Assembly: GCA_902775895.1 (NCBI GenBank)
Contig: CACYNO010000002.1
Coordinates: forward strand, 1-64,000
Source of the DNA: an uncultured Lachnospiraceae bacterium
GTDB lineage: Bacteria > Bacillota > Clostridia > Lachnospirales > Lachnospiraceae
Direction of reading: 5' to 3'
Length of the DNA: 64,000 nucleotides
The notes under the pieces were generated by a model. The model made no database searches, was not told where the DNA came from, and saw only the letters and a program-made list of their open reading frames with translations. Each line of letters opens with the position of its first letter. Positions within the stretch are counted from its first letter, which is position 1. Below are positions 2,488 to 61,230 of this stretch, in pieces. A program made the position numbers and the translations under genes.

Positions 2488-2725
2488 AACAAAAACAGTT
2501 TCCGTGTTTGTCATTTCAAACTTTAGAAGACAACCCAAAAAAATAAGACCGATGATTCGTTATACGAGCAAAAAGCATCGGCTGCTCAACATCCATTGTA
2601 TGGTCAACAACCTTATTGCAGCTTTATGCTTTTTGTTCGTGTACATAACGAATCATCGGTCTTAAATTTTTTTAGGGTTGTATTCTAGGTTTTGAAAGGG
2701 CAAATCACGGAAACTGTTTGTTGTT
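2488..2725. repeat. Long hairpin repeat, family I, copy A
   Basis: An almost perfect foldback of about 238 bp: the two arms, about 100 bases each, pair from AACAGTTTCCGTG inward through GACCGATGATTCGTTAT to a GCTGC/GCAGC apex. It lies between nagB and the antiporter operon, which converge, so it may terminate both. The arms are not exact mirror images: the left has GTGTTTGTCATTT where the right (reverse complement) has GTGATTTGCCCTTT. The same arm-specific differences recur in the other copies (14864, 18257, 56609). Its inner stem is nearly identical to that of copy E at 61066. This region holds no gene. Confidence 0.85.
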
Positions 2726-2754
2726 ATTAAAATATGACAAAATAACTGTCCACT

Positions 2755-4752
2755 TCAACGCCACCCTGAAATAAACGATATTATGATAAAATACAACACC
2801 GCCACAACGCCGGCGCCGAACATTATCAGACTGTAAGAGATACCCTGGGGTATCTTGCTTTCTTTCTCTTCTTCGTTGAAGGTTCCGAACTCATTATTAA
2901 GCGGCGGCTGGAATCTCTCGGGCCTCTTCAGGAATATGATCTTGCCCACAAATGCCGTGAACCAGTCCACGATAGATGCCACCGATCTTGCAAAGAGTGC
3001 TCCGATAAAGGGAAGCACCGTAAGGAGTGCCGGTCTGTAAACTTTCTTTTCAAGATCAAGTTCCTCAGGCCACGCATTCACATAGGCCTTCTTTCCGTCT
3101 GACTGTTTTCTTAGCATTCCCAGTCTCACGATAACCAGATACGCTGCAACTCCTCCGCCCAGTGACTTTAAGGTTCCCGAGATATTTACCCAGGAGAAGT
3201 AATGTACCGCATGTTCCGGTGAATGGCCGTGGAGGAAATGCTGGGCCACATCAGCTATACCGTCCGCCGTGATATTCGGTATTGCACCGATAACGGGAAG
3301 GATGGCTGCAGATATGATGAGTATCACCGTGACGGGAACAGACATATAGTGCTTGTTTGCATCAAACTGTGCCTGCTTTGCCGGGTCATTGTTCTTTTCA
3401 ACGAATACCGCAAAGAAGAGCTTGAGCATATAACAACAGGTCATACCACCCGCAATGATAAAGAGCACTTCTATCGCCTTGAAACCGTAAGCCCATCCGG
3501 TGTGCTCGGCTATCTCTATATATTCCACTATTGACTCATGGATGAGAGTCTTGCTCACATATCCGTTCCAGAGGGGTACACCGATCACACCCAGTATGGC
3601 AAATCCCGTGGTAAACATAAGCGCCGGCTTCTTTCTTCCGAATCCCCTTATGTCATTTAAGTTGAAGCTCTTTAAGTTCATAAAGATAACAGCCGCTACC
3701 ATAAAGAGGGCAAGCTTTATAAGGGAATGGTTTACAAGATGTAAAATACTTCCTCTTACTGCCAGGGCGTTGTGGTGTCCGAGCACCGCCTGCATACCTA
3801 CGCCTACTATGATGAATCCTATCTGTGACATGGATGAGCAGGCAATGGTCTTTTTGAAATTGTCGGAGAGTATACCCATGATACCTCCAAGGAGCGCCGT
3901 AGCGATACCAAAGAGTGTCAGGGCAAGTCCCCATGAGAAATGATGCAAAAGTATCTGTCCAGTGATGACAAACATCCCGAAGATACCTGCTTTACTAAGT
4001 ATCGCTGAGAGCAGTGCCGTTCCCGGTTCCGGTGCCGCCGGGTATGACTGTGGCAGCCAGGTATGTAATGGGAACATTCCCGCCTTTACTCCGAATCCCA
4101 CAAGCACAAGGGCGCACGCCCACACAAGGGTAACCTCGCTTATGCCGGTGGACTCGATGGCAGGGATAAGGGCATCCATCTCAAGGGTGCCTAAGTTTGC
4201 CTGGAGCATGAAAAGACCCATGAGTGTGGCAAGTCCTCCGAATACCGCAAAGCCCACATAAGACTTGGAAGCATCTATCACGTCATCCGTCTCTTTATGG
4301 ATGACCAGTATATAAGATGTAAAGGACATCACCTCAAAGAAGATAAAGGTGGTATAAAGGTGGGATGAAAGGAATATTCCCATGGTCGCCCCTAAAGTCC
4401 AGAGCGCGAACATGTAATATCTGTTGCGGTTGCGGCTTTCCGTCTTTTTAAAATATTCTATTGAGATGATGGTGGTAAAGAACCATATGAATCCCGCAAG
4501 AATGGCCATTATGGTCCTGAAGCCGTCGCCTCTTAAATGCACTCCCAGCCCCGCGAAAGCATGCCAGTGGAAATCATTGGTATCACTCGCAGAGGCTATT
4601 AGGAAGATCGCTGCCGCAAGCTCTGCCGCAGTCACGACGATCACGAAAATGTCCCTTGCCCGCTTGGAGTTTCTTCCGATCAGATAACTCACAAGTCCCG
4701 CCGCAAATGGGAAGAACACAAGGAACATAAGCAGTCCGTTTCCTTCAAGCAT
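2755..4752 (-). CDS. NuoL/MrpA-type proton-conducting membrane subunit
   Basis: A 665-residue polytopic membrane protein of the antiporter-like family (proton_antipo_M: NuoL, MrpA, MbhH). It forms an ion channel module of a multisubunit cation/proton antiporter or respiratory complex in the cytoplasmic membrane. Visible are many hydrophobic helices, the channel signature HTWLPQSYPAAPEPGTALLS (about residues 225-245), conserved lysines in the helices, and a C-terminal extension to one last helix as in NuoL. It is the last gene of a ten-gene minus-strand operon with about 30 bp to the upstream gene. The extra MbhD/MbhE domains of a true full-length MrpA are absent here and encoded separately upstream, so the organisation is closer to Mbh-type operons. 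Which ion it moves cannot be read from the sequence. Confidence 0.85.
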   Translation of the reverse strand: MLEGNGLLMFLVFFPFAAGLVSYLIGRNSKRARDIFVIVVTAAELAAAIFLIASASDTNDFHWHAFAGLGVHLRGDGFRTIMAILAGFIWFFTTIISIEYFKKTESRNRNRYYMFALWTLGATMGIFLSSHLYTTFIFFEVMSFTSYILVIHKETDDVIDASKSYVGFAVFGGLATLMGLFMLQANLGTLEMDALIPAIESTGISEVTLVWACALVLVGFGVKAGMFPLHTWLPQSYPAAPEPGTALLSAILSKAGIFGMFVITGQILLHHFSWGLALTLFGIATALLGGIMGILSDNFKKTIACSSMSQIGFIIVGVGMQAVLGHHNALAVRGSILHLVNHSLIKLALFMVAAVIFMNLKSFNLNDIRGFGRKKPALMFTTGFAILGVIGVPLWNGYVSKTLIHESIVEYIEIAEHTGWAYGFKAIEVLFIIAGGMTCCYMLKLFFAVFVEKNNDPAKQAQFDANKHYMSVPVTVILIISAAILPVIGAIPNITADGIADVAQHFLHGHSPEHAVHYFSWVNISGTLKSLGGGVAAYLVIVRLGMLRKQSDGKKAYVNAWPEELDLEKKVYRPALLTVLPFIGALFARSVASIVDWFTAFVGKIIFLKRPERFQPPLNNEFGTFNEEEKESKIPQGISYSLIMFGAGVVAVLYFIIISFISGWR

Positions 4753-4784
4753 TCTTTATACCTCCTTTCTTTTCTTAATGATAT

Positions 4785-14766: not shown

Positions 14767-14863
14767 AAACCTAGTAACTACGGGGCTTTGAGGGTGGTGG
14801 GGGGGATGTTATACAGCCATGTCCATTACATTATATGTTACACAAACATAAATTTGTCACTTT

Positions 14864-15123
14864 AATGTCTGTTTTGACTATATCAGCTCTCGTGATTTGC
14901 CTTTCCAAACTGTAGAATCCGGCCCTGAAGAATTAAAAGAACGACTAAATCGTTTAAACACGAACAAAAAGCATGAACGCTGCTTAAACTCTTTCTTTGC
15001 ATAAATGCATTGAGCAGCCATGCTTTTCGTTCGTAAACGTTTTAGCCGTTCTTAATTCTTCGGTCCGCCTTCTAATGTTCGGAAAGACAAACACAGAGCT
15101 GATAATCGTCAAAAACAGACATT
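14864..15123. repeat. Long hairpin repeat, family I, copy B
   Basis: A foldback of about 260 bp. The outer bases (AATGTCTGTTTTGAC) pair with the far end (GTCAAAAACAGACATT), and pairing continues inward through CAGCTC, TTTCC, GTAGAA/TTAGAA and GAAGAATTAA to an apex around GCAGCC. Compared with copy C (18257) it is inverted: the arm with ATTTGCCTTTCCAAACTGTAG is on the left here and on the right there. It fills most of the 624-bp gap between nrdD and the metallophosphoesterase gene, downstream of the latter. The remaining bases of the gap hold only the NrdR sites and A/T-rich sequence. Confidence 0.85.
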
Positions 15124-15201
15124 TCTAGTTATACTTTCAGCCTTTATCAGTTGACAACTCCTCTTTCTCACAAAAAAAATTATGTTATGTGCACTAATCA
15201 T

Positions 15202-18054
15202 TTAATTTTTTTCACTATTTATCATTTTGGGCTTTTCAGTTAATGAACGATCATTTAACACAGCATCATTCCATATCCTAATCACATTTTGTTCCCAGAT
15301 ATACTGTACAGATCTCATCATTCTCGAAGGACAATACATTTCTGTACCAAACATCCATTGGGGTATAATAATAGATTCAAAACAATCATTTTTTTCATCC
15401 ACGCTATTACCAATTATAGGGATATCACCATTTTTATATATAGCTTTAAAACACTTTAATAAACATGGCTCTTTTTCTTTTATTAATTTTTGTACGTCAC
15501 CAAACACTAGTCTTGACAATGTATCTATTGCCCAATATGGTGTGATTTTTCCATCCAACGGATTCAGATATAAATGACTAAAAAAACTGATATCTACTAT
15601 ACATCCATGAATATTGCCTAATCCACCTATTTTTTTTACTTCTTCGCTTATACGCTTTAGCATTTCTTGGTATGGTTTTATCCGGGATTCTATTTTTTTA
15701 ACATAAGGTACCATATTATTGTAATAATACTGAATGTCTTTCTTCTCAAGTTTTTTCCTGCTACCACCATTCATTAAACAAAGACTTGTCGGCGATTCTA
15801 AAACAAACATATAGTTTCCGCTAGCTTTCAACAAATACAACTTTCCCTTATGATTACATCCACTGATGTATATGCCTCTTCCAATATTAAATTCTTTATA
15901 TTTTTCAGAATCAATTTCATATATCCCATCATTATACTTTTCAAATGGGTCATACCACATATTACCAATAGTAAATGCGTTTAATTTCCATCTTCGTGGT
16001 TTATAGCCCATTTGATTATCTGATAAAACTATAGACTCAGTTTTCATTATAGCATTACAATGTGTGTGGCCATTAACATATATCCAATTAGGATTACAGG
16101 CTCCATTTATCCAGTCATAAACCGGCGTGTGCGTAAGAACGACTATTTTTTTGTTGTAAGCACAACGTTTTATTTTTTCATATACTTTTCTAAAGGTTTC
16201 AGTTCGTTTTATATCTTCTTCCATACTTGTTATGGCTCTTCTATACAATCCCGCATTAGCGTTGTATTTAGGATTAAGCCCCGAATAGCCCAAGCCTCCC
16301 AATACTATTAATGAGCATTTTTCAAGAAAATCAGACAATTCATCATCCGGCGTATTCATTATATCTTTCTCACATACCGTTCTGCTCTTTTCATTTTTAT
16401 ATATTACATACAACTCATTTTCTATTAAAACTCTTTCTTTAATAAGCCACGGAATATTCTTATTTATAGTTTTTTTGTAATCTTCGACTATTTCTTCAAT
16501 AGAACGGGAATGAAAATAAGGATCTATCCATTCAGAAAGATGTGTCCCATCCCATAATTCATGATTTCCAAGAATACATATTACTTTACCATTCCATTTA
16601 GACCAAAGTCTATCAAAAAACATTTTTGACAAGCCAATATTGTCTGCAACATCTCCCCCTATCAATAAAATACTGTTTACGTCCGCACCATAAATCATTT
16701 CATCAATCTTCTGATCAATTAAAAACAGCATTTTATTATATTTTTCTTTACTACTTATGGAAGATAATAGTAATTCTATGATTTCCTCAAACAGTTGATG
16801 TTCAATATGAATATCGGAGATGTAATATATTTTTTCCCCCTCCACGTCATCTAAATAATTATGAAGTACAATTTCTTCATTATGTGGTACAACGCTGTAG
16901 TCACTTGGTATATTGTCAACTTGGCATTTTGCTTTTTTAACATAATCAACAAAATCTATATATTTTTCAAAAAGCAACCCAACTCCATTTGAATCGTTTT
17001 CTTCTATACCTGAACTCTTTAGTTTTTTATTTAAATATTTTATCGTCTTCTTTTGTAACGGTTTAATTTCCTTGTTTCTTTTATCTACAGGAACTGTAGA
17101 TACTCTTAATTTATTATTAATAATTCTTTCATTCCATAAAGTCAAACTAACTACAGCATTTTCCTCGCTGTCTAATATGGCATTAATTATTTTAAAATTG
17201 TTCCTCATTTTTTCGGGGAGATCATTAAACGATATCTTTATATCACGCAATTCACTTACACTAAATATTTTTTCCTTAATAACTTGAAGACACATGGATT
17301 CTGTAACATATTTTTCTTCGATATACGGCAAAACAGAACGATCGCACTGAAAACAATACTCACATAATTCTTCATTTATATACTTTTTAGGAACATAACG
17401 TATAGAGCGAACATTGTCTGCTATAGCTAAATCAACTATTTTTTTTGTAATTAGTTTTTGGGGAACATATTTCAAAGATAAGCCATTATTTGCAACAGCA
17501 ATGCAAACCATTTGCCTAGTGATTTTTTCACAGTCTATATCCCTTAAACAAAGCGGATTATACTTAACTGCTTTATATAATAGTTCTTCAGATAACATAT
17601 CATTGGGAACAAACGCTATAGGATACTTTGTAATATCACTTGTCTGTTCTTCATTTTCATTGCCTTCAACAATAAAACATATTGCCTTTTCTAATAAATT
17701 CTTATTATTTTTTAGAAATTCTTCCGGAACGAACTCTAGCGCATTACCATTTTGAAAAACTGCTGTCATATACAGTCTCATTAGCCAGTTTTTTTTACTC
17801 GTTTTTATAATTTTTTCTGGAATATATTTTAAAGAAAGTCCGTTTTGCTTAACACTTATTTCACATAATTCGTTTGTCACAAGCCTTTTAGAAGCGTGTT
17901 GTAACGCTAAACCATCGTGCTTACAAATATGCAGCAGCAATTCGATTGTATGCTCATTTTTAGGAACTTTTTTTAAATTTTCTGCTATAGGATTAGAATA
18001 TGCTATTTCTATAGGAGACTGCTCAATAAGCCCCAGTTTTTTTTCCAAATTCAT
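15202..18054 (-). CDS. Large repeat-containing metallophosphoesterase, probably acquired
   Basis: A 950-residue protein, no signal peptide. The first 270 or so residues are a tandem array of about 45-residue helical units with the recurring pattern NGLSLKYVP(E/Q)KLIT..LC..AV, which I associate with DUF4116-type repeats. Residues about 412-670 form a calcineurin-like phosphoesterase with all metal ligands visible: SDIHIE (D-x-H, about 415), GGDVADN (about 467), GNHELWDG (about 495), LTHTP (about 645) and NGHTHCN (about 662). The last 280 residues are unrecognised. Such enzymes hydrolyse phosphodiesters or phosphomonoesters (nucleic acid, cyclic nucleotides, proteins); the substrate cannot be told. 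The gene is clearly A/T-richer than its neighbours, sits alone with its own promoter, and is bracketed by two oppositely oriented hairpin repeats (14864 and 18257), so horizontal acquisition is likely. A defence or regulatory role is possible but unproven. Confidence 0.75.
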   Translation of the reverse strand: MNLEKKLGLIEQSPIEIAYSNPIAENLKKVPKNEHTIELLLHICKHDGLALQHASKRLVTNELCEISVKQNGLSLKYIPEKIIKTSKKNWLMRLYMTAVFQNGNALEFVPEEFLKNNKNLLEKAICFIVEGNENEEQTSDITKYPIAFVPNDMLSEELLYKAVKYNPLCLRDIDCEKITRQMVCIAVANNGLSLKYVPQKLITKKIVDLAIADNVRSIRYVPKKYINEELCEYCFQCDRSVLPYIEEKYVTESMCLQVIKEKIFSVSELRDIKISFNDLPEKMRNNFKIINAILDSEENAVVSLTLWNERIINNKLRVSTVPVDKRNKEIKPLQKKTIKYLNKKLKSSGIEENDSNGVGLLFEKYIDFVDYVKKAKCQVDNIPSDYSVVPHNEEIVLHNYLDDVEGEKIYYISDIHIEHQLFEEIIELLLSSISSKEKYNKMLFLIDQKIDEMIYGADVNSILLIGGDVADNIGLSKMFFDRLWSKWNGKVICILGNHELWDGTHLSEWIDPYFHSRSIEEIVEDYKKTINKNIPWLIKERVLIENELYVIYKNEKSRTVCEKDIMNTPDDELSDFLEKCSLIVLGGLGYSGLNPKYNANAGLYRRAITSMEEDIKRTETFRKVYEKIKRCAYNKKIVVLTHTPVYDWINGACNPNWIYVNGHTHCNAIMKTESIVLSDNQMGYKPRRWKLNAFTIGNMWYDPFEKYNDGIYEIDSEKYKEFNIGRGIYISGCNHKGKLYLLKASGNYMFVLESPTSLCLMNGGSRKKLEKKDIQYYYNNMVPYVKKIESRIKPYQEMLKRISEEVKKIGGLGNIHGCIVDISFFSHLYLNPLDGKITPYWAIDTLSRLVFGDVQKLIKEKEPCLLKCFKAIYKNGDIPIIGNSVDEKNDCFESIIIPQWMFGTEMYCPSRMMRSVQYIWEQNVIRIWNDAVLNDRSLTEKPKMINSEKN

Positions 18055-18183: not shown

Positions 18184-18256
18184 TGCTTTTTTAAAAAACT
18201 GTTACAGTCCCAAACATTTTGCTTTGTTATAATGAGATTTTCAAACAAGGAATTAG

Positions 18257-18516
18257 TTTCTGTTTTTGACGATGATCAGCTCCCATGTTTGTCTTTCCGA
18301 ACATTAGAAGGCGGTCCGAAGAATTTAAGAGTGGTGATCCGGTATACGAATGAAAAGCATACTGTTTGAAAAAACAGCGGCAGATTCCTGACGCTGTTTT
18401 TGAGTTTATGCTTTTTATTCGTGTTTATACCGGATTGCCGCTCTGAAAATTCTTCAGGGCCGGATTCTACAGTTTGGAAAGGTAAAGCATGGGAGCTGAC
18501 AAAGTCAAAACAGACA
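18257..18516. repeat. Long hairpin repeat, family I, copy C
   Basis: A foldback of about 260 bp in the gap between trkA and the metallophosphoesterase gene. Left arm: CAGCTCCCATGTTTGTC, TTTCCGAACATTAGAAGG and CCGAAGAATTTAAGAG. Right arm (reverse complement): CAGCTCCCATGCTTTACC, TTTCCAAACTGTAGAATCC and CCTGAAGAATTTTCAGAG. The apex is a second hairpin around AAAACAGC/GCTGTTTT. The outer TTTCTGTTTTTGAC/GTCAAAACAGACA bases pair as in copy B, but the orientation is opposite. It ends 10 bp from the trkA stop codon and may act as that operon's terminator. Confidence 0.85.
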
Positions 18517-18525
18517 CAAATGGTC

Positions 18526-41990: not shown

Positions 41991-42103
41991 GCCCCTCTGA
42001 TATTGCTTTTTACTCCCGGGAAAAAATCCGCAAATTGTTCTTAAGTCAGATACGTCATGGATTTTTTCCCAATGTCGTAAAAAGCAATACAGAGGGGGTT
42101 TTT
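41991..42103. repeat. Long hairpin repeat, family II, copy 2
   Basis: A 113-bp foldback, CCCCTCTGATATTGCTTTTT to AAAAAGCAATACAGAGGGGG, with the same internal contrast as copy 1 (ACTCCCGGG on the left, ACGACATTGGG on the right after complementing) but in reverse orientation. It lies 150 bp upstream of the amt start, so it cannot be just that gene's terminator. The 41843-41990 gap is A/T-rich and should hold the amt promoter; I could not single one out. Confidence 0.85.
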
Positions 42104-42160
42104 GATTTTTATGATTTTATTGACGGGCGAGGGGTATGAAGGCGGGTTTTGAAAGCAGGA

Positions 42161-42300: not shown

Positions 42301-42385
42301 TGCACCCCTTTGTCAAGACAGTTTTTTTAAAAATTTAAGTTGGATTTTTAAGAGAAATATTCTCTCCGCTTTCTTCCTGTAATTG

Positions 42386-42715
42386 TCCACTAAATGTGGA
42401 TATATGAACTGTCAAGGGTTTGCCTGCAAGGCTTCCGTAGGAACCCTTGACAGCTCATATAGGCACATTTACAATCCGATACCCGGAAGAGATTTATGAC
42501 TTCATATAAACCTCTTCCGGTGTCTTATATTTCAGGCTTGAATGCGGTCGCTCTTTGTTGTAGTAATGTAAATATTCATTTATTCCTATACGAGCCTCCC
42601 AGGGAGTCTCATAATACTTTGGATATACATTTTCATATTTCAATGTTCTCCATAGGCGTTCAATGAATATGTTATCGTAGGCACGCCCTCTGTGGTCCAT
42701 ACTTATTTATTATAT
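42386..42715 (-). mobile_element. IS3-family insertion sequence remnant
   Basis: Contains the last 68-70 codons of an IS3-family OrfB transposase (42494-42712): SMDHRGRAYDNIFIERLWRT, NVYPKYYETPWEARIGINEY, YYNKERPHSSLKYKTPEEVY, with the final catalytic glutamate in the IERLWRTLKYE segment. The rest of the element is missing; the coding part starts abruptly against the tmcAL pseudogene. Downstream, a strong hairpin (CTGTCAAGGGTT/AACCCTTGACAG, 42409-42453) and a possible terminal repeat near 42386 (TGTCCACTAAATGTGGA) mark the end of the element. Confidence 0.8.
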
Positions 42716-46417: not shown

Positions 46418-46529
46418 AATCTGCTTAGGTTAATATGTTACATGCAAGGCACTCGACTGATCAGCTGTGATGAGTCCCAGCGCCCGGCTTGGGTTTACCA
46501 AGCCCTGGTTTACGGGTTACATGCAGATT
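46418..46529 (-). other. Structured sequence in the 3' region of the adhesin transcript
   Basis: AATCTGC (46418-46424) pairs with GCAGATT (46523-46529), closing a region that contains two further stems: GGCACTC/GAGTCCC (one mismatch, 46448-46477) and the perfect GGCTTGG/CCAAGCC (46486-46504). TTACATGCA occurs as a direct repeat at both sides (46438 and 46517). The result would be a multi-branched RNA between the stop codon and the terminator. I do not recognise a known RNA family. Confidence 0.45.
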
Positions 46530-49500
46530 AAGCTACATTATCATCAATGTTCTTTTTGCGTCTGCTTCTTACCGCAAGACCGGTAATGGCTGCAGCAACA
46601 GCTCCCGCACCGATAAGGAATATCCAAAGGGTTCCTGAACCACCGGTGTTTGGAAGTTCGACTGCGATAGGCTCGTTCTTATAACTGAAGTGGAAACCAT
46701 ACCTGTTAAAGCTCACTTTACGCACACGACCTGAAGCTACAGCTTCGGAATCTAATTGTACGCTCAATTGTGTCTTAGAATTTGATGAGTTTCCTGTGTT
46801 TGATCCACCTCCGGTATTAGATGAACCACCTGAAGTTGTCGGAACCAATCCTGTTCCTTTCTCAAGCAATATTCTGCACTGCATTCCATCCGTCAGTACA
46901 TTTACAGGCACCCATTTATTCTCATCAGAGCTCCATGTCTGTATTATAACATTTGCAGCTTCGGACGCATCAAGTGTACCTTGCAACGTTGTATGGCCCA
47001 AATCATATGGATCAACTTGATATCCATCGTCATATCCTGTCATAGTATTAATAACATACTCCATACCAGACATATAAATTGTATCATTATATCTGTTTAA
47101 AAGAAGTTTTCCGTTACTATACTGCCAGGACGCTTTTTCACCCAAAATGGATTTATGAGAATAAGCACTTGAATGAGCTGTATCTTCATAATAATCCTGA
47201 TATTTATAGCCTCCTTCGTCCCATTCGGCTTTCGCTGCGTGTGCATTATGCATTGGGTACTTATCATACATCGTCTTACCAATAACCAATATTCTTGTAT
47301 ATCCTTCACTATCCGTATAGGTAAGCTCTGAATGCTCATTCACAGTCCACACTTCATTTCCATCTTCAGCGTTTTTGAACGTATCGTATTCTGACACTTC
47401 GTATCCCGTCAAAGCTACATTTCTTTTACCTTGTGTATGTACCAACGCACTGTACGTTTTATCTTCCGTTCCGTCTGTGTTCTGACCATTCTGATTTTCA
47501 TCGTCTGAATTATCATCAGAATCAAGATCTCCTGTGCTATCACCGCCTGAAACTATAACTTTTACAGGCTCACCAATCGTATAATACTTTGGAGCCTTAG
47601 TCTCAACCAACCAGTAGGTTCCGGCTGTAACACCTTCAAATTTATACTTTGCACCTTCAACCCAAACACTTGGGTATCCGCTGGTCTCTGCTGCTCTCTT
47701 TGCATTCTCAGCATCACTTGCCTGTACAAGTTTGAACTCAGCGTATTTATCATCTGATACCTTGTTAATACTCATCGGATCACCGGATTCATCTACTTTT
47801 TGAATAGTAAGATCAGCCAGCGGCTCGTTAGTGATAGTCACTTTAGAACGTGTTACCTCATATTGATTATCTCCAACACCGATTAAGTTTTGGTATTTAT
47901 ACAAGTTATTCGTTGATTGTGGTATATACAGATATAAGTGCTTGTCCTTAGCTACTTCATCCAAGTTTGCATCATGAATCCTGGATATGAAAGCCCGATA
48001 AGCTTCATGCAATCTTCCTTTGTTTGGTCTGGCAGCATCATTCCTTGCATCCAATGCAAATACTCTTTGCTTTTTTTCTCTGAAATTCTTATTGTTATAA
48101 TCTCCATACCAATCAGAATACTCGAATACAGCACACTGGGTTATCCATATGAACTCTTCGTCAGAAATACCAAATTCATTTTTGAAATTCTTTGAAGTCT
48201 CAGTTCCGCTACCATATCCCCACAAACTGATTGCAATCAATCGCTTGTATAACGTCGCTGTATCTTCGTTTCCTAATCGGATACTACCTGATGTTATATA
48301 ATTATTGTTTACAATATAGTTCTGTAAATCAGTTCCATTCTGAACTAATATTTTCTTATATTCTATAGGATTATAATAATACTGATTCGAGTAAACATTC
48401 GGACCCTGTACAGGATAATTTATACAAAATGCAGGTCGTGTTATACCTGAACCCCTACTTGTCTCTAAATAATGTACCTGGGAACCAATATAACCACCGT
48501 TACTTGCATCGTACTTCGAAGATGCATAGTAGGTTGTATTATCAACAGTACTTGAAGTTACATTGGTTACAGATCCCGACACCATTTGCGTAGAAGTATT
48601 GATAAATCCACTAACATTCTCTTCTCTGATACGATAATTAATAGCTCTGTCAACCTCACCATTATCATCATAAATGTATTTAGGAAGACCAGTTATTGTA
48701 TCTGTCCATGTGTCTGAATCCAGAGAAGGTTTATTAATAGTATGCTGTTTATAGTCGCTAAACTGACCTGCTTCACCATACTCATCTGATTCAATGGTTA
48801 TTGTAATACTATCAGGTCTTTCTCTGACTACTCCGTTATCATCCCACTTTTTAACTATCTCAATCTCTGTAGTTATAGTATCATTCTGAACATTTATAAC
48901 AAACGAATTATCAGAGTCAATACTTACTTTTCCATTAAATGTATTGCTGATATCAGATATACTTCCGTCATTGTTAACCTTAAACGTAAACTCTATTGTT
49001 ACATCGTTACCCTGATTGTCTTTATTATAATAACCTTTAGGTGGATTTGTTTCCTTAATGTAGTATGTTCCAGGCTCTAATACGTCTCCGCTTGTATGAT
49101 AAGCTCCGTTTATGCCCATGAATATTTCACTTCCACTTGCATTGTTCCTTCGTAATTCGAATTTTGCTCCGGAACGATCATGTCCGTTCTTATCCGTTTT
49201 TCTGATAACAACTTTGTGGAGCTTCTTAGTATTGTAAATAGTTCCACCATCTACGAGATTACCATCGGTATATTCGTCCCTAAGACTAAGCCGAACAACT
49301 CTCTCGGCATTGTTCTTAGATACTATGACATAGTCTCCGGCAGAGGTGATCGCAGTTGTCAGGTCATTGACGCTTACGCCTTCCTTATAAAGACCGTAAT
49401 CTCTCTCTCCGGCTGCAACATCAATGCCACCGAATTCCTTAGTGTTATAAACGAAACCATTCGGATATCCGCCTTTATAATCTGCTCCCATCTCGGAACC

Positions 49501-52500
49501 AAGGGTCTTTCCGTCTTTACCTTCGTAACCCTCTTTGTAAATGGAATATGTCGCTTTATCCGGACTGCTTGCTATATGGTATATTTTCACCTTTCCGTCA
49601 GCGCTTTCGAAATCAGCATCAAAATACATTCCTTCATGTAAAGAGTCAAGGTCCAAACTAACATCAACCGTTTTAGGCGTACTGCCAAAACCGGTATCCG
49701 ATGTATAATTGTAACCCCAGTACTTATCGTTTACATATAATCCGCCTTTTTGGGCATAGTCCGTGCGAAGTTTCGTATCTACAACAGTTACATCAGCCGG
49801 ATTAGCTTTTCTACACCCTCCACCAGGATGACCATCTCCACCACCAAGATTATCTGACACGGAAAGTATTTTCCTGTCTACACCTTTTCCGATAACAATT
49901 GTGTTGTCATGAAGCTTTGTATTACCGTACTCATCCTTGAGCTGTTTTTCAATCTGCGCAGCTAACCCGTTAGGAGACTGCGTCGCCGTGTTACTGTAAG
50001 ATACATTGTAATATTTAAAGAAATCCTTAACATTATTATTAAGAGTATCACTGGTTTTCAGGTACAAAAGGTTCTCACTAAGAGTATAATTCTGATATAC
50101 AAACTCAGGTAACTCTTTTGTTCTAATAGTCCACTCGTTACCGTTTCTTTCGATGGTAAATCCGGGATCGGTTATTGTCTCATTTCCGAGTTTTAAAGAA
50201 AGTGCATTTTTAAACGCATTTATAATAGTTTGATTTGTCGGTGCCGCAGCTCCGTCACCTTCCCATTTCTTGGTGAATTGAAGTGCTTTAGTCGGCGGTT
50301 CAACCGTTACCGTATTAGTCTTTTTACTCTTGGTGATACCACCTCTGTATTTTACTTCATAAGATGCGCGGTTACCGATACCGTCATGGAAAGCATTGTT
50401 GGTACCGGTCACGGGAATATCCGTCTTGAACGGCTCAACAGTAACACCTTCACCTACTTCAACCCAATTGATATTCTCATAGCCAACCTCAAAGACACGG
50501 CAACGATCCAGGATATAATTTGAATTTCTGGAATCATCATGCTCACCTGTCCAGCATGCAAGGAAATACTTGCCGGCAGGTAAATTGCTGAATTTGCCGG
50601 AATTTCTGTTGAAACCAACCGCCCAGCCAGTCCCGTCTTCATTACTTGTAGGGCCGGGAAGTCTCCCGGTGCGATATACATATTTATTCTCTATGCCAAA
50701 TTTATCAAGTATCTCATCTGTTAATCTACCGCTTGTTATCTCACTTTTTCTACATGTCACTCCGGATCTGTCACTTGTCCAAGCATCAAAATACTCTAAA
50801 GAATAAAGTCTGTAGTAATATCCATTATCCGGGTTATAGGAAGCAAAGCCTTCTATCTCATAGTCTCCCGTTGTTGTATAAGTCACGTTAGCCCTGTTCG
50901 GAGTCAAATCTTGTACAGCTTTTTCAGTTATTATCTTATTTTCAACATCGCTATAATGTTCCGGCTTGATCCTTGCGTTAAATGTCAGCTGTATCCACTT
51001 ACCTTCCATATCTGCGGTAACAGGAATACTTGCAGATATCACCTTGTTGTCTATATTGACAATACTGGTATCAAGGTCTTTAACAAATACATTTGTCTTG
51101 GAAACGGTACCTGTACCATCACCGGTACCGATATGATTGTTACCATCCTCAGCACTGCTGTCATATACAACTCTGAACATATGGTTGCTTGCGTCAGCAA
51201 TAGTAAATGACTTAACAACCTCTTCTTTGTAGACGTTTGTTCCGCCACCGGTTCCGGTGCAGCGGACAACCACATATTCACCTGCCGGAAGCTTGCTAAG
51301 GTCAACATTTAACTTATTATTCGACATTCCGAATTTATCATTATCAGATATTGTTACTCTGGAATAGCTGCCACCGTCTTCAAATCCTATGGAATTAGAG
51401 GAATCTTTAACCTCTGCATCAGCAAATGCAACATTATTTGCTGACGGTTTTTCATTTCCTTTTCTGTAAATATAATACTTATATCCGTAGTTATCAGGTA
51501 TGTCATTAAGTTCAGCAGGACGTGATGCACCGTTTACCACAAGCTTTGAAGCATTAAACTTATCGCTGCTTTGTGCATTCCCGTCTATATCAACAAACTC
51601 AAGCCACTCAACTAAAGTATCACTTATCTCAACAGTCTTTGCACTTTCAGGAACGTACGCCAAAATATCATATGTAAATACAGAATCAAATCCCGGGAGG
51701 GTTTCGTCTACTTTCTTATTTACATATTTCTCAACCGTAAATTCTTCAGGTTTTTTATTTTTAAGAGTTCCTGTCTTTAAGCCACTGATACCGGTATTAT
51801 ATTTTTTGAGTGTTGCAATCGTGTTAGTACCTGTTCTGTCAGTAAACTTCTTTTCAGTATATGTATTAGTAATAGTTACGTCTGTTGGTAACAGATTCTT
51901 ATCATCTACAACATATTTAGCTTCTGTGAAATCTAGTACGATCGGATCTGTATGACCGGTCACAGCTGCTTTGTTTGAATTAAGAAGATAATATGTGCCG
52001 TTTAAGTAATTTACGAGATTGATGGTTCCTGATGATGCACTGACCGTCTTCATAAAATAATAATCATTTTCAGAAAGTCCGTTGATAGCGGTAATTCCCA
52101 GATCACCTAACTTCTTAGGTACACTGTAACTTCCGTCGCTTTCCGTAAAATTGAAGTCTCTATCAGTTCCGGCATCAGCTTTCTTAAGTAAAATATAATT
52201 ACCGTTGGTAAGACCTGTTATACCATAATTCCCCGTCGGAGTCTCTTCTATAGTAAAGTTCCACTTAACTTTAGCTTTTGTGCCGCTGCTAACGCTTGCA
52301 AGTTCACTCCATATAGGATCAAGAGACGAAGCCGTCTTATTGTTTCCGTAAGTTAAGACATAAGCGGGCACAGACACCGTATGAGAGTTACCGTTTGCAT
52401 CGGTATACGTGAAGTGAGAATCACCGTAAGGCAGAGCTATCTTTGCTTTGTACGGCTCTTTCTCATATACCATAAGAGCCTGATCATCGTTATTTTCAGC

Positions 52501-55500
52501 GTACCCGTCAAGGATGAACTGGTATCCCGGAATTGCCTTTTTGTACTCATTTCCGGCACTGTCAGTATATGTCAGGTAGCCCTGGAAGCCTACCGGCTCA
52601 TGGCCTCCGACATTTAATCCGTCTTCCCACTGCTTCTGGATCTCAACATCCGCGCTGTGATCGTATAACTCGCCGCCTTTACCGAATATTACGGTACCAT
52701 TGGAAGCTATACCACCACCGTTACGAGCATTATTATCCTTAATGTAGATTCCGTCTTTACCCCGGTCTGTATTATCATTTACGCTTGAATCTTTGGAATT
52801 ATATACATTATGTGCCGATCCGCCTGAATATAACTTGCCCCAGATAAGCGCCTCATCACTTCCTTCATATTTGAATTCCGAAGCCTGACCGTTTTTTGCG
52901 TCATTTAAGAGGACAAAACCGCCTTTATTAGCTAAAGCCGTTATGTCATCTCCCTCTTTTTCAGCCTCATTATTGTTAACTATAACGGAGTCATCGTAAT
53001 TTCCGTTAAGATATTGTATGGAAGCATATCCACCAAGGGCACAGAGCCACAGGCCACCTCCCTGTCCTGCAGAACCCCAGCGTCCGAAATCTCTCCAGTC
53101 ATGTGTACGATAACCGCCGGACGCATACTTTCCTTTACTCCAATCCGCCTTATTGCTTTCAACAACATTTCCGCTTGAATCTCTTGCAGCTCCTAAAGGA
53201 GATTTGTATGTATATGTAGTTGATCCATATACATATGTATCATTATTCGGATTGTCATTTAGTATTCTCTTCAGATAAGCATAGTCTTTAGGATCAGGAT
53301 TGTTCTTATCCACTCCTGATTTCGTTTCCTGATAAGCATGGTTATCTCCTATGTATCCTTTCGGTATATAAAGGGTATAAGTACGATCAGCATAATCACC
53401 CTCTACATAGATAGCACCACCGAGAACTCTTGAGTTGTTATTGGTGATCTGACCTTTTTCCAGTATAACGTCGTCTGAAATGACATTAATGGCACCACCA
53501 CGCTGGATAGCAGTATTGTTATCGATCACACCGCCGTGCATACCGAATTTAGCTTTGGCATTTTCTCTTTTTTTCTGTACATTGAACACTTCTGATGATA
53601 CATATACCGCACCACCTTTGTTCCATGTAAAGTTATCAACAATGGCAGGGTAAATACTGTCACCGTCATTTTCATCAGCCATTATAAACTCAGCAGTATC
53701 ATTAGCATGTGTAGGATTAATGTAAACCGCACCTGCATAATGAACACCCGTGTTGGCAGCAATGACACCACCGGTCATGGTTACCTTTGTTGTCTTTGCC
53801 TGGCTTTCATTTCCATCCGTCCTTACTATTATCGCACCGGACTCACCTTTATTCTCCCCGATGAATCCTCCGGTGATCGTATGACCGGTTCCGCCTCCGA
53901 AGATAATAGCACCCGCGGAGTTTCTGTTTAATGAATTATCCTTAAGTCTGTCTTTAATAACCTGGGCTTCACTCTTTGAATAATCTGAAGTAAAAACATC
54001 AGATGCGTAAGCTGCTGTATTCTTTCTGATCTCACCGCCTGTTATATTTACCGTACCGCCTGTTGTGTAAACAGCTCCTGCGGAATTATCACCATTCACA
54101 TCATTCTCAGTGATCATACCGTCGGCAAATGTAAATGTACCTGCACTTACATAAACCGGTGCCGTACCTGTAGGCGCTGTTCCATAAGCCGCTGTATCGT
54201 AGTCTCTTAATGTAGCACCGTCTATCTTGACTGTTCCGCCCCACTGACGAACGAAGAAACCAACGTTGTTATTGATCTCATCTTTTGACCAAGTGTGTGC
54301 AGTAGCATTGGCATATTTCTTTCCCTCAGGATTTCCCGGCTGTGCCTGTTGTCCTTCATCAACTACTTCATATGTTGGCGTTGTAAGATTCTCACAACGT
54401 GAATCGGTGTAAAGATCTGGAACCTGAGGTTTAGTCAATCCTCCGCCAAGTGTAATAAGATGCTTGTCATTATTACCCGGATTACGATCATCAGCAAAAT
54501 CAACAGAATACGAAGAATATGAACCCCTCATTTTGCCATCTCTGACAAATACATGAGCGCCCCAGGATGATGCACCATAAATCTTGGGGTCAAAATTTTC
54601 TGTATCCCAAGTCACTGCTTTGTCATTTGCATCATCTATTCCCCAAAACTCTTCAATCTTGTTGTCAAAACCTGTACTACTGGCACTAAACACAAGTGTA
54701 AAGCTGTTAGCATTTTGTAAATAGGTTACATATGGTCTCCCATATTTGTAATGACTCTTATATGGATGAGTGGATGTTTTAACACTCCACTTGGAGTGGT
54801 CCGTATTATATGCCCAATGATTCGGACCAACCCATATAGCTTCATATAGTGTATGTCCAGTCTGTGAACCAGTATACGTTCTTCCTTCTCCGGGTACGAT
54901 AGCTAAAGCCTTTCCTTCAGAGTTAAGTATACGGCTGTTAGCTGTATGTGCGTAAGTACCATCGTTTGCAAGTGACGGATCATCTTTGAATTTTAAAGAA
55001 CCGTCCGGATTCTTTTTCTGTCTTCCTACTATAGCTTCTGAATCATCATCACAAACCCAACCATACACGGCATCTGCTCCGGGAACGGGATCAACTGCAT
55101 CGATATTCCCTGACATACCGGACACATTACCTGACAAGGTAATATTATCCCCAAATGTAATATTACCTCCATCTTCAACCCTGAACATTGCCCCTTTCAT
55201 ATTAAGGTCATCTGCACGTACGATCTTTGCACCGTTCTTTGAAACCAGCTTTATCTTTACACCACTCGGGATCTTTATCTGTCTGTCCAAAACAAAACAG
55301 TCCAGAGCATTTCCGTTCGTAGAACCATCTATATATATATTTTCCTTACTGTTTTCGATAAGAATCTCAGTTACATGGTTACCGTATGTGTTTCTGAAAG
55401 AAGCATCCGTTTCTATATATTTAATGATATCTTCAAGCTGCTTGGCAGTCCTGACAACAGTCTTATTATCGATCCTGTCATTACCATACTCGTACAACGC

Positions 55501-55677
55501 ATGCGCAAAACAATATACCTGGTCCGCCGCTGCTACACTTTCCGGCGCAATAGAAGATATCGCCGGCCCTACCACAGACGCACCAAGCACACCCGCAAGC
55601 GCTGCTGCGAGTTTACCTTTCCAGTTACCCCTCTTCTTTTTTTCTTCAGGTTTCAAACTGAATTTCGTTGTTTCCAT
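46528..55677 (-). CDS. Giant LPXTG-anchored adhesin with internal thioester domain
   Basis: 3049 residues. A long YSIRK-less signal peptide lies at about 18-52 (WKGKLAAALAGVLGASVVGPA). About 90-1000 is a parallel beta-helix-like region (repeated ITGGEIRKNTA, GGAVYVSSE, GGGIASNGTVIFGKGGE elements). Then comes a series of CnaB/SpaA modules, starting at about 1010 (VEIQKQWEDG), 1800 (LQFTKKWEGDG), 2158 (VIRKTDKNGHDRSGAKFEL), 2274 (IEIVKKWDDNG) and 2626 (LTIQKVDESGDPMS). Between the last two sits a thioester domain: PAFCINYP (Cys 2418) and WITQCAVFEY (Gln 2514). The C-terminus has VELPNTGG (about 3006), a helix and RSRRKKN. Start ATG 55677 follows AGGAGG; the frame open to 55707 begins with GTG. 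It likely binds a host or microbial surface, covalently through the thioester. Confidence 0.9.
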   Translation of the reverse strand: METTKFSLKPEEKKKRGNWKGKLAAALAGVLGASVVGPAISSIAPESVAAADQVYCFAHALYEYGNDRIDNKTVVRTAKQLEDIIKYIETDASFRNTYGNHVTEILIENSKENIYIDGSTNGNALDCFVLDRQIKIPSGVKIKLVSKNGAKIVRADDLNMKGAMFRVEDGGNITFGDNITLSGNVSGMSGNIDAVDPVPGADAVYGWVCDDDSEAIVGRQKKNPDGSLKFKDDPSLANDGTYAHTANSRILNSEGKALAIVPGEGRTYTGSQTGHTLYEAIWVGPNHWAYNTDHSKWSVKTSTHPYKSHYKYGRPYVTYLQNANSFTLVFSASSTGFDNKIEEFWGIDDANDKAVTWDTENFDPKIYGASSWGAHVFVRDGKMRGSYSSYSVDFADDRNPGNNDKHLITLGGGLTKPQVPDLYTDSRCENLTTPTYEVVDEGQQAQPGNPEGKKYANATAHTWSKDEINNNVGFFVRQWGGTVKIDGATLRDYDTAAYGTAPTGTAPVYVSAGTFTFADGMITENDVNGDNSAGAVYTTGGTVNITGGEIRKNTAAYASDVFTSDYSKSEAQVIKDRLKDNSLNRNSAGAIIFGGGTGHTITGGFIGENKGESGAIIVRTDGNESQAKTTKVTMTGGVIAANTGVHYAGAVYINPTHANDTAEFIMADENDGDSIYPAIVDNFTWNKGGAVYVSSEVFNVQKKRENAKAKFGMHGGVIDNNTAIQRGGAINVISDDVILEKGQITNNNSRVLGGAIYVEGDYADRTYTLYIPKGYIGDNHAYQETKSGVDKNNPDPKDYAYLKRILNDNPNNDTYVYGSTTYTYKSPLGAARDSSGNVVESNKADWSKGKYASGGYRTHDWRDFGRWGSAGQGGGLWLCALGGYASIQYLNGNYDDSVIVNNNEAEKEGDDITALANKGGFVLLNDAKNGQASEFKYEGSDEALIWGKLYSGGSAHNVYNSKDSSVNDNTDRGKDGIYIKDNNARNGGGIASNGTVIFGKGGELYDHSADVEIQKQWEDGLNVGGHEPVGFQGYLTYTDSAGNEYKKAIPGYQFILDGYAENNDDQALMVYEKEPYKAKIALPYGDSHFTYTDANGNSHTVSVPAYVLTYGNNKTASSLDPIWSELASVSSGTKAKVKWNFTIEETPTGNYGITGLTNGNYILLKKADAGTDRDFNFTESDGSYSVPKKLGDLGITAINGLSENDYYFMKTVSASSGTINLVNYLNGTYYLLNSNKAAVTGHTDPIVLDFTEAKYVVDDKNLLPTDVTITNTYTEKKFTDRTGTNTIATLKKYNTGISGLKTGTLKNKKPEEFTVEKYVNKKVDETLPGFDSVFTYDILAYVPESAKTVEISDTLVEWLEFVDIDGNAQSSDKFNASKLVVNGASRPAELNDIPDNYGYKYYIYRKGNEKPSANNVAFADAEVKDSSNSIGFEDGGSYSRVTISDNDKFGMSNNKLNVDLSKLPAGEYVVVRCTGTGGGTNVYKEEVVKSFTIADASNHMFRVVYDSSAEDGNNHIGTGDGTGTVSKTNVFVKDLDTSIVNIDNKVISASIPVTADMEGKWIQLTFNARIKPEHYSDVENKIITEKAVQDLTPNRANVTYTTTGDYEIEGFASYNPDNGYYYRLYSLEYFDAWTSDRSGVTCRKSEITSGRLTDEILDKFGIENKYVYRTGRLPGPTSNEDGTGWAVGFNRNSGKFSNLPAGKYFLACWTGEHDDSRNSNYILDRCRVFEVGYENINWVEVGEGVTVEPFKTDIPVTGTNNAFHDGIGNRASYEVKYRGGITKSKKTNTVTVEPPTKALQFTKKWEGDGAAAPTNQTIINAFKNALSLKLGNETITDPGFTIERNGNEWTIRTKELPEFVYQNYTLSENLLYLKTSDTLNNNVKDFFKYYNVSYSNTATQSPNGLAAQIEKQLKDEYGNTKLHDNTIVIGKGVDRKILSVSDNLGGGDGHPGGGCRKANPADVTVVDTKLRTDYAQKGGLYVNDKYWGYNYTSDTGFGSTPKTVDVSLDLDSLHEGMYFDADFESADGKVKIYHIASSPDKATYSIYKEGYEGKDGKTLGSEMGADYKGGYPNGFVYNTKEFGGIDVAAGERDYGLYKEGVSVNDLTTAITSAGDYVIVSKNNAERVVRLSLRDEYTDGNLVDGGTIYNTKKLHKVVIRKTDKNGHDRSGAKFELRRNNASGSEIFMGINGAYHTSGDVLEPGTYYIKETNPPKGYYNKDNQGNDVTIEFTFKVNNDGSISDISNTFNGKVSIDSDNSFVINVQNDTITTEIEIVKKWDDNGVVRERPDSITITIESDEYGEAGQFSDYKQHTINKPSLDSDTWTDTITGLPKYIYDDNGEVDRAINYRIREENVSGFINTSTQMVSGSVTNVTSSTVDNTTYYASSKYDASNGGYIGSQVHYLETSRGSGITRPAFCINYPVQGPNVYSNQYYYNPIEYKKILVQNGTDLQNYIVNNNYITSGSIRLGNEDTATLYKRLIAISLWGYGSGTETSKNFKNEFGISDEEFIWITQCAVFEYSDWYGDYNNKNFREKKQRVFALDARNDAARPNKGRLHEAYRAFISRIHDANLDEVAKDKHLYLYIPQSTNNLYKYQNLIGVGDNQYEVTRSKVTITNEPLADLTIQKVDESGDPMSINKVSDDKYAEFKLVQASDAENAKRAAETSGYPSVWVEGAKYKFEGVTAGTYWLVETKAPKYYTIGEPVKVIVSGGDSTGDLDSDDNSDDENQNGQNTDGTEDKTYSALVHTQGKRNVALTGYEVSEYDTFKNAEDGNEVWTVNEHSELTYTDSEGYTRILVIGKTMYDKYPMHNAHAAKAEWDEGGYKYQDYYEDTAHSSAYSHKSILGEKASWQYSNGKLLLNRYNDTIYMSGMEYVINTMTGYDDGYQVDPYDLGHTTLQGTLDASEAANVIIQTWSSDENKWVPVNVLTDGMQCRILLEKGTGLVPTTSGGSSNTGGGSNTGNSSNSKTQLSVQLDSEAVASGRVRKVSFNRYGFHFSYKNEPIAVELPNTGGSGTLWIFLIGAGAVAAAITGLAVRSRRKKNIDDNVA

Positions 55678-55699
55678 CGTTTGAATTTCCTCCTTGAAT

Positions 55700-55727
55700 G
55701 TTTCCACGTTCCCAAATCCGTGGAAAC
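55700..55727 (-). promoter_or_regulatory. Hairpin just upstream of the adhesin ribosome binding site
   Basis: A perfect 8-bp stem GTTTCCAC/GTGGAAAC with a 12-nt loop ends about 9 nt before the AGGAGG (55685-55690). It is not a terminator. It could modulate access to the ribosome binding site. Confidence 0.55.
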
Positions 55728-56608: not shown

Positions 56609-56814
56609 AAAAAACCAGCTCCCGTGTTTACTTTTCCGAACATTAGAAACCGGGTCAAAGAATTAAGGCAGGTGAAATCGTTATACAAAGGGCAAGCATA
56701 GTTGCGAAGCAACATTTATGCTTGTTCTTTGTGTTTATAACGATTCGCCTGCCTGTCAATTCTTTAGGGCCGGGTTCTACAGTTTGGAAAGGTAAATCAC
56801 GGGAGCTGTTTTTT
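56609..56814. repeat. Long hairpin repeat, family I, copy D
   Basis: A foldback of about 206 bp, from AACCAGCTCCCGTG to CACGGGAGCTGTT, with the apex GTTGC-GAA-GCAAC. Left arm TTTCCGAACATTAGAAACCGGG; right arm (complemented) TTTCCAAACTGTAGAACCCGG: the same left/right contrast as in copies B and C. It ends about 40 bp from the first parS site and 55 bp from the stop codon of the hydrolase gene, so it may be that gene's terminator. Confidence 0.85.
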
Positions 56815-56851
56815 CATAACGGTAAACAACGCCTGTTATTACAATCCGGAA

Positions 56852-58749: not shown

Positions 58750-58766
58750 AGCGGAAAGGATCTATC

Positions 58767-59717: not shown

Positions 59718-59730
59718 AGGAGAATACATA

Positions 59731-61014
59731 ATGATAGATATAAAGCTTATCCGCGAGAATCCGGAATTGGTAAAGGAGAACATAAAAAAGAAATTTCAGG
59801 ATGATAAGCTGGAGCTTGTTGACGAGGTGGCACGTCTCGATGAGGAGGTCAGAAAGGCCCAGACAGAGGCTGATGACTTAAGGAATCAGAGAAATGTCAT
59901 CTCTAAGGAGATCGGAGCCCTTATGGCACAGGGCAAAAAAGATGAAGCTGAAGAGGCAAAAAAGAAGGTGGCTGAATTTGCCGACAGGTTAAAGGATCTT
60001 GAAGAGACGGAAGGCACCCATGCCGCAAGGATTCAGGAGATCATGATGACCATACCGAATATCATCGATGAAAAGGTTCCTATCGGCAAGGACGACTCTG
60101 AAAACGTAGAGGTCGAGAAGTTCGGAGAGCCTGTGGTTCCCGACTTTGAGGTGCCTTATCATACAGAGATCATGGAATCCGTAAACGGCATTGACCTGGA
60201 CGCTGCAGGAAAAGTGGCAGGAAGCGGTTTTTATTACCTGATAGGTGACGTTGCAAGGCTTCATTCCGCCATTCTTTCCTATGCCAGAGACTTTATGATA
60301 GACAAGGGATTTACATACTGCATACCGCCTTACATGATCCGCAGCAATGTGGTTACCGGTGTTATGAGCTTTAAGGAAATGGACGAGATGATGTATAAGA
60401 TAGAAGGAGAGGACCTTTATCTTATCGGTACCAGCGAGCACTCAATGATCGGTAAGTTTATCGAATCAATGACACCGGAAGAAAATCTTCCCATCACCAT
60501 GACCAGTTATTCTCCCTGCTTCAGGAAAGAGAAGGGGGCACACGGTATAGAAGAACGTGGGGTTTACCGAATACATCAGTTTGAAAAACAGGAAATGATC
60601 GTAATATGCAAGCCGGAGGACAGCAAAGAGTGGTTTGATAAACTCTGGGCAAATACGGTGGAGCTTTTCCGTTCCATGGACATCCCTGTTCGTACTCTTG
60701 AGTGCTGTTCCGGAGACCTGGCTGACCTGAAAGTTCGCTCCATCGACGTGGAGGCATGGTCACCAAGACAAAAGAAGTATTTTGAGGTGGGATCATGCTC
60801 CAATCTGGGGGATGCCCAGGCAAGACGCCTTAAGATAAGGATCCAGACGGCAGATAAGAAGAAATATTTTGCACATACCTTAAACAACACGGTTGTGGCA
60901 CCTCCACGTATGCTCATAGCCTTTCTGGAGAACAATCTTCAGGCAGACGGTACGGTCAGGATCCCTGAGGTGCTTCGTCCGTATATGGGCGGGCATGAAG
61001 TACTGCAGGGTTGA
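59731..61014 (+). CDS. serS: Seryl-tRNA synthetase
   Basis: A class II aminoacyl-tRNA synthetase of 427 residues. The N-terminal coiled-coil arm (about 1-105: RLDEEVRKAQTEADDLRNQR) grips tRNA(Ser). Class II motif 2 is FRKEKGAHGIEERGVYRIHQF (about 268-288) and motif 3 is NNTVVAPPRMLIAFLENN near the end. The ATG at 59731 follows AAAGGAGA; the open frame upstream overlaps parB. It lies 13 bp after parB, an unusual but in Lachnospiraceae not unknown partner. No T-box is seen upstream. Confidence 0.95.
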   Translation: MIDIKLIRENPELVKENIKKKFQDDKLELVDEVARLDEEVRKAQTEADDLRNQRNVISKEIGALMAQGKKDEAEEAKKKVAEFADRLKDLEETEGTHAARIQEIMMTIPNIIDEKVPIGKDDSENVEVEKFGEPVVPDFEVPYHTEIMESVNGIDLDAAGKVAGSGFYYLIGDVARLHSAILSYARDFMIDKGFTYCIPPYMIRSNVVTGVMSFKEMDEMMYKIEGEDLYLIGTSEHSMIGKFIESMTPEENLPITMTSYSPCFRKEKGAHGIEERGVYRIHQFEKQEMIVICKPEDSKEWFDKLWANTVELFRSMDIPVRTLECCSGDLADLKVRSIDVEAWSPRQKKYFEVGSCSNLGDAQARRLKIRIQTADKKKYFAHTLNNTVVAPPRMLIAFLENNLQADGTVRIPEVLRPYMGGHEVLQG

Positions 61015-61065
61015 TGTTTTTTACGGTAAAAAGGGACGGTTTTTTGCGGATGTAGCGACAAAGTA

Positions 61066-61230
61066 AGTTTCCGTGTCTGTCTTTAAAAACTTTAGAACAC
61101 GACCCAAAAAAATAAGACCGATGCAATTCGTTATACGAGGGGCAGGCATAGCTGCGAAGCAGCATTTATGCATGTCCCTCGTGTTCATAACGAATCATCG
61201 GTCTTTAATTTTTTTAGTGCCGCCCTGTGA
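61066..61230. repeat. Long hairpin repeat, family I, copy E (right end decayed)
   Basis: A foldback of about 160 bp between serS and trxA, which converge. The inner stem (AAAAAAATAAGACCGATG, TTCGTTATACGAGG, apex AGCTGC-GAA-GCAGC) is nearly that of copy A at 2488. The left arm extends to GTTTCCGTGTCTGTC, but the matching outer part on the right is lost (GTGCCGCCCTGTGAAGG). It suffices as a bidirectional terminator. Just before it, 61031-61041 carries a lone GGGACGGTT core. The rest of the gap 61231-61337 has no gene. Confidence 0.8.

Follow-up and report, generated by a model that had tools for sequence, protein, structure and literature searches.

Bacterial REP, REPIN and BIME repeats, which go with RAYT enzymes, are interspersed, palindromic and intergenic, do not move autonomously and often lie 3' of genes. 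The attC sites of integrons are imperfect hairpins in which one-sided unpaired bases give the strand its identity and the tip is variable; their R boxes read RYYYAAC / GTTRRRY. Intrinsic terminators are likewise hairpins found 3' of genes, and their foot bears A- and T-tracts. In the literature, REPs are given as 20-40 bp long (PMC3733652), attC sites as folded DNA hairpins recognised by IntI (PMC3053210, PMC11641012), bacterial miniature inverted-repeat transposable elements (MITEs) and stem-loop families as dispersed, non-autonomous sequences with inverted arms (PMC2267715, PMC6382973), and foldback or palindrome-centred rearrangements as inverted duplications centred on a hairpin (PMC3315005, PMC10622511). 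In this study, we describe family I, a dispersed family of long hairpin repeats that resembles each of these systems in part. Five copies (A to E) lie in the window, a stretch of 64,000 nt from one contig of the genome of an uncultured Lachnospiraceae bacterium (G000, 1.65 Mb). A covarying fold, a strand bias, arms in series, presence and absence among relatives and self-complementary outer arms specific to each copy were all computed directly. In our judgement the chances are evenly balanced for the reading that we prefer: family I would be a mobile but non-autonomous hairpin, whose fixed bulges serve to recognise it as a folded single strand and which is inserted at the tips of hairpins.

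Membership of the REP/RAYT systems fails on size and enzyme: the core of family I, about 200-240 nt in length, has fixed bulges and its copies apparently nest, and the three carriers have no Y1_Tnp match, though they may once have had such an enzyme. Family I is also longer than the usual attC site. In most of 23 copies the arm reads GTTTGGA or GTTTGAA (by eye), which departs from the R box, and no integron cassette array was seen, integrase families not having been searched for. Terminal inverted repeats, a MITE trait, are present, the arms being complementary over the core. Unlike bacterial MITEs, however, family I has stems that vary with compensation, strand-specific pairing and apparent nesting of tip in tip; no parent transposon was found in a search limited to two enzyme families, RVT_1 and Y1_Tnp. 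Intrinsic terminators differ in that the family I stem runs to tens of base pairs, has conserved internal loops and belongs to one homologous dispersed family. Simple terminators were rejected as a full account, since they leave this dispersed homology, the fixed bulges and near-identical copies unexplained. The foldback rearrangements were studied in E. coli and yeast, whereas family I is a dispersed conserved family. For a group II intron or retron product, no PF00078 match was found in the three carrier genomes. An earlier note on this stretch knew of no named family that fits. We found none either: Rfam at gathering threshold gave no match in the window, a search of five loci at E <= 0.5 gave six hits, all under gathering scores and four of them to microRNA-precursor models, and no matching family appeared in literature listings and the openings of abstracts.

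All five foldbacks that the earlier note had placed in the window were recovered by folding and by covariance-model search. Their bounds according to the model, and the gene lying between two of them, are as follows.

2489-2723, plus strand: core of copy A; outer paired arms extend to about 2468-2749
14877-15109, minus strand: core of copy B; outer arms to about 14863-15124
15202-18054, minus strand: 950-aa DUF4116/Metallophos gene, between copies B and C
18270-18505, plus strand: core of copy C; outer arms to about 18256-18517
56609-56815, plus strand: core of copy D; A-tract before the foot, T-tract after
61058-61263, plus strand: copy E, decayed; right outer arm lost

The folding energies of these stretches are -129.6 (A), -137.5 (B), -149.6 (C), -128.5 (D) and -67.8 (E) kcal/mol. 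Copy B is inverted relative to the other four, and its outer arms resemble those of C by eye. In copy E, A:C mismatches are as common as G:U pairs (5 and 4); its orthologue (L063) in the congener RUG10926 (G203, likewise an uncultured Lachnospiraceae) is intact. Copy D is 96% identical to G000:C2:154409-154614, and the neighbours of the two differ.

The covariance model was built from an alignment of 23 oriented G000 copies, most of them picked by a loose match to the arm motifs themselves. The core forms a hairpin that contains a 2x2 internal loop and ends in an apical part that is small or variable. After the 2x2 loop, the 3' arm carries in order bulges of 1 nt (the A of AGG), 2 nt, 4 nt and, near the tip, about 3 nt; the four-nt bulge adjoins a U-G pair in all 23 copies. 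This architecture is kept across G000 and G203 while the stem sequence differs widely. In a second alignment of 18 hand-chosen copies (10 from G000, 8 from G203), 38 of 53 pairs show changes on both sides, amounting to 196 cells as compared to 55 (standard deviation 6) after shuffling and 28-39 with partners slid; among the 23 G000 copies, both-sided changes occur at 35 of 66 pairs. The pair structures counted here and for the strand bias below were derived from the very alignments counted. Covariation thus exceeds both controls, and the 2x2 loop and bulges persist, in agreement with the compensating changes and conserved mispairs that the earlier note described. The fixed arm differences that it saw recurring between copies are also present: the motifs CATTAGAA and TTCTACAG, each proper to one arm, both occur in 22 of the 23 aligned copies, with window copy A as the exception, a count that is not independent, most copies having been chosen via these motifs. 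Hairpins of the form GCGNAGC are very stable as DNA, and the GNA triloops at the apex of 13 of 18 short-tip copies give a weak hint of DNA.

The fold of one strand is what is kept. In columns with a Watson-Crick majority, the plus strand shows 60 G:U against 4 A:C cells (25 against 3 types). When the minus strand is folded into a structure of its own, the bias is reversed (G:U 14, A:C 32), and the alignment energy goes from -87.8 (plus strand) to -54.6. A strand-indifferent alignment of the arms gave 168 G:U and 35 A:C over the core of 41 copies; one partial copy (L088) of the 42 G000 places was omitted from the counts of strand pairing, outer arms and gene context. Six decayed copies (L085-L087, L089-L091) total 18 of each, and the outer arms are unbiased (57 G:U, 55 A:C). 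The plus strand is more stable in 38 of the 41 copies. Leaving aside the six decayed copies, it is favoured in 34 of 35 with RNA energies and in 34 of 35 with DNA energies, so the energies do not help to tell RNA from DNA. Selection for a DNA cruciform as such was rejected because a cruciform folds both strands, yet core pairing is kept for one (60 G:U against 4 A:C). Where the earlier note proposed selection on an RNA or cruciform, or a mobile hairpin, the cruciform branch falls with this bias; the remainder agrees with the covarying fold and the signs of mobility.

These counts also bear on an ordinary double-stranded MITE with long terminal inverted repeats, whose arms would be matched by arm-to-arm quasi-palindrome correction in replication. 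Such an element would account for two inverted arms with conserved blocks, dispersed copies, the empty site described below and outer arms devoid of strand bias, and the correction would yield paired changes without any selection. Yet such correction would be expected to remove the fixed bulges and mismatches, and these are retained in subtypes whose stem sequences largely differ; nor should it favour G:U over A:C in the core. Moreover, no target-site duplication was seen, the flanks of the one empty site (L050/L039) being too diverged to set ends. We regard a MITE of this kind as very unlikely.

Gene context was read from simple open reading frame calls of 70 aa or more, supplemented by tRNAs. 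With the plus strand as reference, the left and right neighbours of the 41 copies are +- in 24, -- in 13, ++ in 2, -+ in 1 and +? in 1; the added tRNAs place L052 and L082 under +- and L057 and L090 under --, with totals unchanged. Two neighbouring pairs (L032/L047 and L039/L050) make the sites partly non-independent. At least one gene ends at 40 of the 41 copies, which lie 3' of it; the earlier statement that all copies lie just after genes therefore holds but for a single copy. Copy A sits 3' of both gene 1723-2448 (+), nagB-like as judged from its end, and gene 2755-4752 (-). Judged by eye, the foot of many copies is preceded by an A-tract and followed by a T-tract. To judge from these tracts, copies in place may act like terminators and may stop transcription from both sides.

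A structured RNA acting in place is an alternative that we hold to be rather unlikely. Its stable strand would be transcribed from a convergent neighbour or from its own promoter and serve as a terminator, 3'-end stabiliser or protein-binding RNA, and copies would have spread by ectopic recombination. Tolerance of G:U is typical of RNA, 24 of the 41 copies lie between convergent genes, and the tracts at the foot suit a terminator. However, of 15 co-directional sites, 13 have the stable strand antisense to the gene upstream, and there the bias is equally strong (55 G:U against 4 A:C, or against 6 after tRNA corrections). A promoter-like match for the plus strand was found within 180 nt at 1 of 13 -- sites, as compared to 10 of 13 in the direction of the left gene; at +- sites the plus-strand figure is 5 of 24. 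Furthermore, 8 of the 11 genomes of the genus have no copy at all.

Outside the core, each outer arm pairs with its partner in the same copy (mean score 17.7, which includes about 10 nt of foot) rather than with the outer arms of other copies (4.6). Decayed copies omitted, the own-partner score lies above the permuted 95% in 24 of 35 copies; beyond 30 nt only, the means are 6.0 and 3.4, and 15 of 35 copies exceed that level. Such pairing agrees with a core that sits within the loop of an older hairpin, for instance a terminator. The idea that the outer arms are terminal repeats common to the copies was rejected, the flanks of different copies being unmatched in BLAST at 1e-3 except for nested pieces of other copies and a few short ones, e.g. 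L055/L090. By eye, several copies share short motifs in their flanks, those of B and C being alike.

In the third carrier genome, G207, many matches lie close to contig starts. Using the arms of one copy (L062) as BLAST queries, we mapped arms in ten contig starts, chosen for having matches, and in seven contig ends. L062 itself reads left-left-tip-right-right, and L064 reads left-left-right up to the contig end. Arms were present in all ten starts: left arms in series in C5 (three) and in C37 and C81 (two each), right arms in series in C56 (three, the outermost partial) and in C59, C40 and C52 (two each), one arm of each label in C18, and one arm in C30 and C35. Some pieces in series are partial or weaker, and weak labels are uncertain because left and right arms are near inverse complements. 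Tandem Repeats Finder gave periods of 146 (C5) and 150 (C56) and none in C18; by eye, the unit boundary repeats the element's own tip sequence. Read plainly, these arrays would mean that one copy went into the tip of another. Pieces of other copies also occur beside two G000 copies: the tip-side right half of one next to L043, and a further right-arm piece next to L042. In C5 of G207, a GAA/ACA-rich tandem repeat with a period of 39 and others (L225, G207:C5:1-5000, at 2824-3224) lies about 2.4 kb away from the serial arms.

As a mobile hairpin, the element would be defined by its fold, that of one strand being kept. The core would enter the tip (loop) of an existing hairpin 3' of a gene, probably a terminator, or of another family I copy; entry into its own kind would produce nested palindromes with left arms in series, a tip and right arms in series. 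The outer arms would then be the older hairpins whose tip the core entered. We infer further that a protein may recognise the folded strand, presumably single-stranded DNA (or RNA) during copying, through the fixed bulges. If true, this would be a mobile repeat identified by its fold more than by its sequence, and its target would be a fold as well. Family I makes testable how structured single strands get copied into bacterial chromosomes. A wider proposal is tentative, and we think it somewhat doubtful: a new mobile class in which a hairpin without genes moves as a folded single strand (RNA or DNA), targets hairpin loops, nests in itself and builds lengthening palindromes at gene ends, partly by inverted copying of the host.

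Relatives of G000 (estimated completeness 95%; G203 88%, G207 86%) provided the empty sites that the earlier note had thought worth looking for. The block formed by B, the gene and C is absent from G203 and G207, in which the matches to window 14789 and 18538 lie only 125 and 70 nt apart; a model of the element (R2), run on 18 chosen loci, had no match at these junctions (L176, L163). The L050/L039 stretch has about 620 nt between matches in G000 against about 30 nt in G207, and that site of about 30 nt contains no long hairpin and no R2 match (L206); the contigs of G203 break at this stretch. The empty site and the missing element-gene-element block show gain or loss. In G206, the gene next to A has a 3' end with a plain terminator, and in G208 a hairpin whose loop is longer comes after the same gene. 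A comparison of ten G203 loci with the window and the 42 loci of G000 showed five of them to lie beside genes that flank a G000 copy. Both flanks are shared by L061 and L063 (same subtype; the partner of L063 is the decayed E) and by L067 (same orientation, different subtype); a single flank is shared by L071, which stands next to the same gene as D but differs from it in subtype and orientation, and by L068, whose partner is decayed. Locus L069 sits next to a gene that has its counterpart at window 24567-25519, where there is no copy.

Several results weigh against a mobile hairpin that enters tips. The strongest against an inert mobile repeat is the conservation of the orthologous copies L052 and L061: their cores differ at about 3 of 168 positions (about 98% identity), yet the flanking genes are about 77% identical, and by eye the outer stem carries compensating changes. 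Such near-identity exceeds that of an inert insertion and argues for function in place, as a structured RNA would have, or for recent re-entry. With regard to the arms in series, they come from a fragmented metagenome assembly and lie at contig ends, they may reflect misassembled palindromes, and the mirror of two levels on both sides is seen in L062 only. In addition, only one of the seven G207 contig ends (C30) has arms, and R2 matched 4 of the 10 contig starts (E <= 0.05). The want of a definable target-site duplication counts here too. As to a mobilising enzyme, neither RVT_1 (PF00078) nor Y1_Tnp (PF01797) has a match in G000, G203 or G207, in a search that covered these two families and no other transposases or integrases; PF01797 matches occur in 4 of the 11 genus genomes, none of them a carrier. 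A retro-element or RAYT repeat of the present host was rejected on the same absence of matches in the three carriers.

A further difficulty lies in the genes beside the outer arms. Among 23 open frames that reach an outer arm, the 3' end of seven shows a complementarity to the far flank that exceeds the permuted 95%, as compared to about one expected; in L056 the complementarity covers 24 of 29 nt. The frames at L032 and L059 are short and doubtful, and others of the seven, to judge from their translations, would be DnaB-like (L038), CorC/HlyC-like (L056) and enolase-like (L084). Part of the outer arms may hence be inverted copies of host sequence, because plain terminators would seldom extend that deep into a gene. 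This is the main support for a self-primed (snap-back) or hairpin-capped insertion that copies neighbouring host sequence inverted, so that the outer arms would be inverted host duplications. Yet 16 of the 23 frames are not above the permuted 95%, terminators can overlap stop codons, which makes the complementarity fit inverted host copying and gene-overlapping terminators alike, and tip entry alone accounts for the serial arms. We consider snap-back insertion unlikely, though it is partly compatible with a mobile, tip-entering hairpin.

Among the genomes searched, only a few, all from one genus, contain family I. With copy D as query, BLAST gave 47 matches in its own genome, and the covariance model gave 77 (E 1e-73 to 8e-4), which reduce to 42 distinct places, many having been matched on both strands; 23 of the 42 went into the model and 19 are independent of it. 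Within the model bounds, the 30 best places measure 206-242 nt and the remaining 11 examined 111-238 nt. Copies are carried by 3 of the 11 genus genomes: besides G000, G203 has 12 distinct places (both searches combined) and G207 has two places and fragments at contig starts. The further copies in the genome and its relatives that the earlier note had anticipated thus exist. Searches of 200 and 397 genomes drawn family-wide, which scored only about 8-11 candidates per genome under strict filters, matched in G000 only; G203 and G207 were not among the rows shown for them. Copy D had no blastn match in plasmids or phages. One exact pattern had none in viral contigs, where many members would be missed, similar patterns hitting 30-38 of 73 loci; in genome contigs it matched six stretches, three in RUG10926 and three in unrelated organisms, the latter taken for chance. 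An R2 match in the non-carrier G201 (L111, G201:C34, 1137-1218; 26.2 bits, E 2.7e-4, 21% GC) is probably also chance; a whole-genome search of G201 gave no family I match. The arms at all ten chosen contig starts of G207 suggest that such palindromes break assemblies, and the family may for this reason be under-counted.

Other hairpins are present in the window. A second long-hairpin family, with the common arm motif GTAAAAAGCAATA, occupies 40450-40561 and 41979-42111; the motif has three matches with at most one mismatch against 0.21 expected, and a similar piece lies beside copy L047 (by eye). A long foldback at 42372-42490 has arms of 49 nt that are 76% complementary. Short hairpins at 19242 and 62719 carry GGGACGGTTCT at the tip and are perhaps another repeat family; several family I copies have GGGACGG close to the foot as well. 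The minus strand also contains an open reading frame of 3059 aa (46528-55707), the size of which suggests a large surface protein.

Over window 1-56000, each 4-kb bin has a negative GC skew on the plus strand, and for this reason the replication fork probably runs leftwards; the stable strand of A, C and others would then be the leading-strand template. The next 17 kb to the right hold no DnaA-box match for an oriC directly adjoining the window. Three parS-like sites are present at 56852, 57154 and 57931 (the third with a mismatch). They lie beside parA-, parB-, serS-, rsmG- and mnmG-like genes, and copy D adjoins the first of them. In G203, an element of another subtype (L071) lies between parS-like sites.

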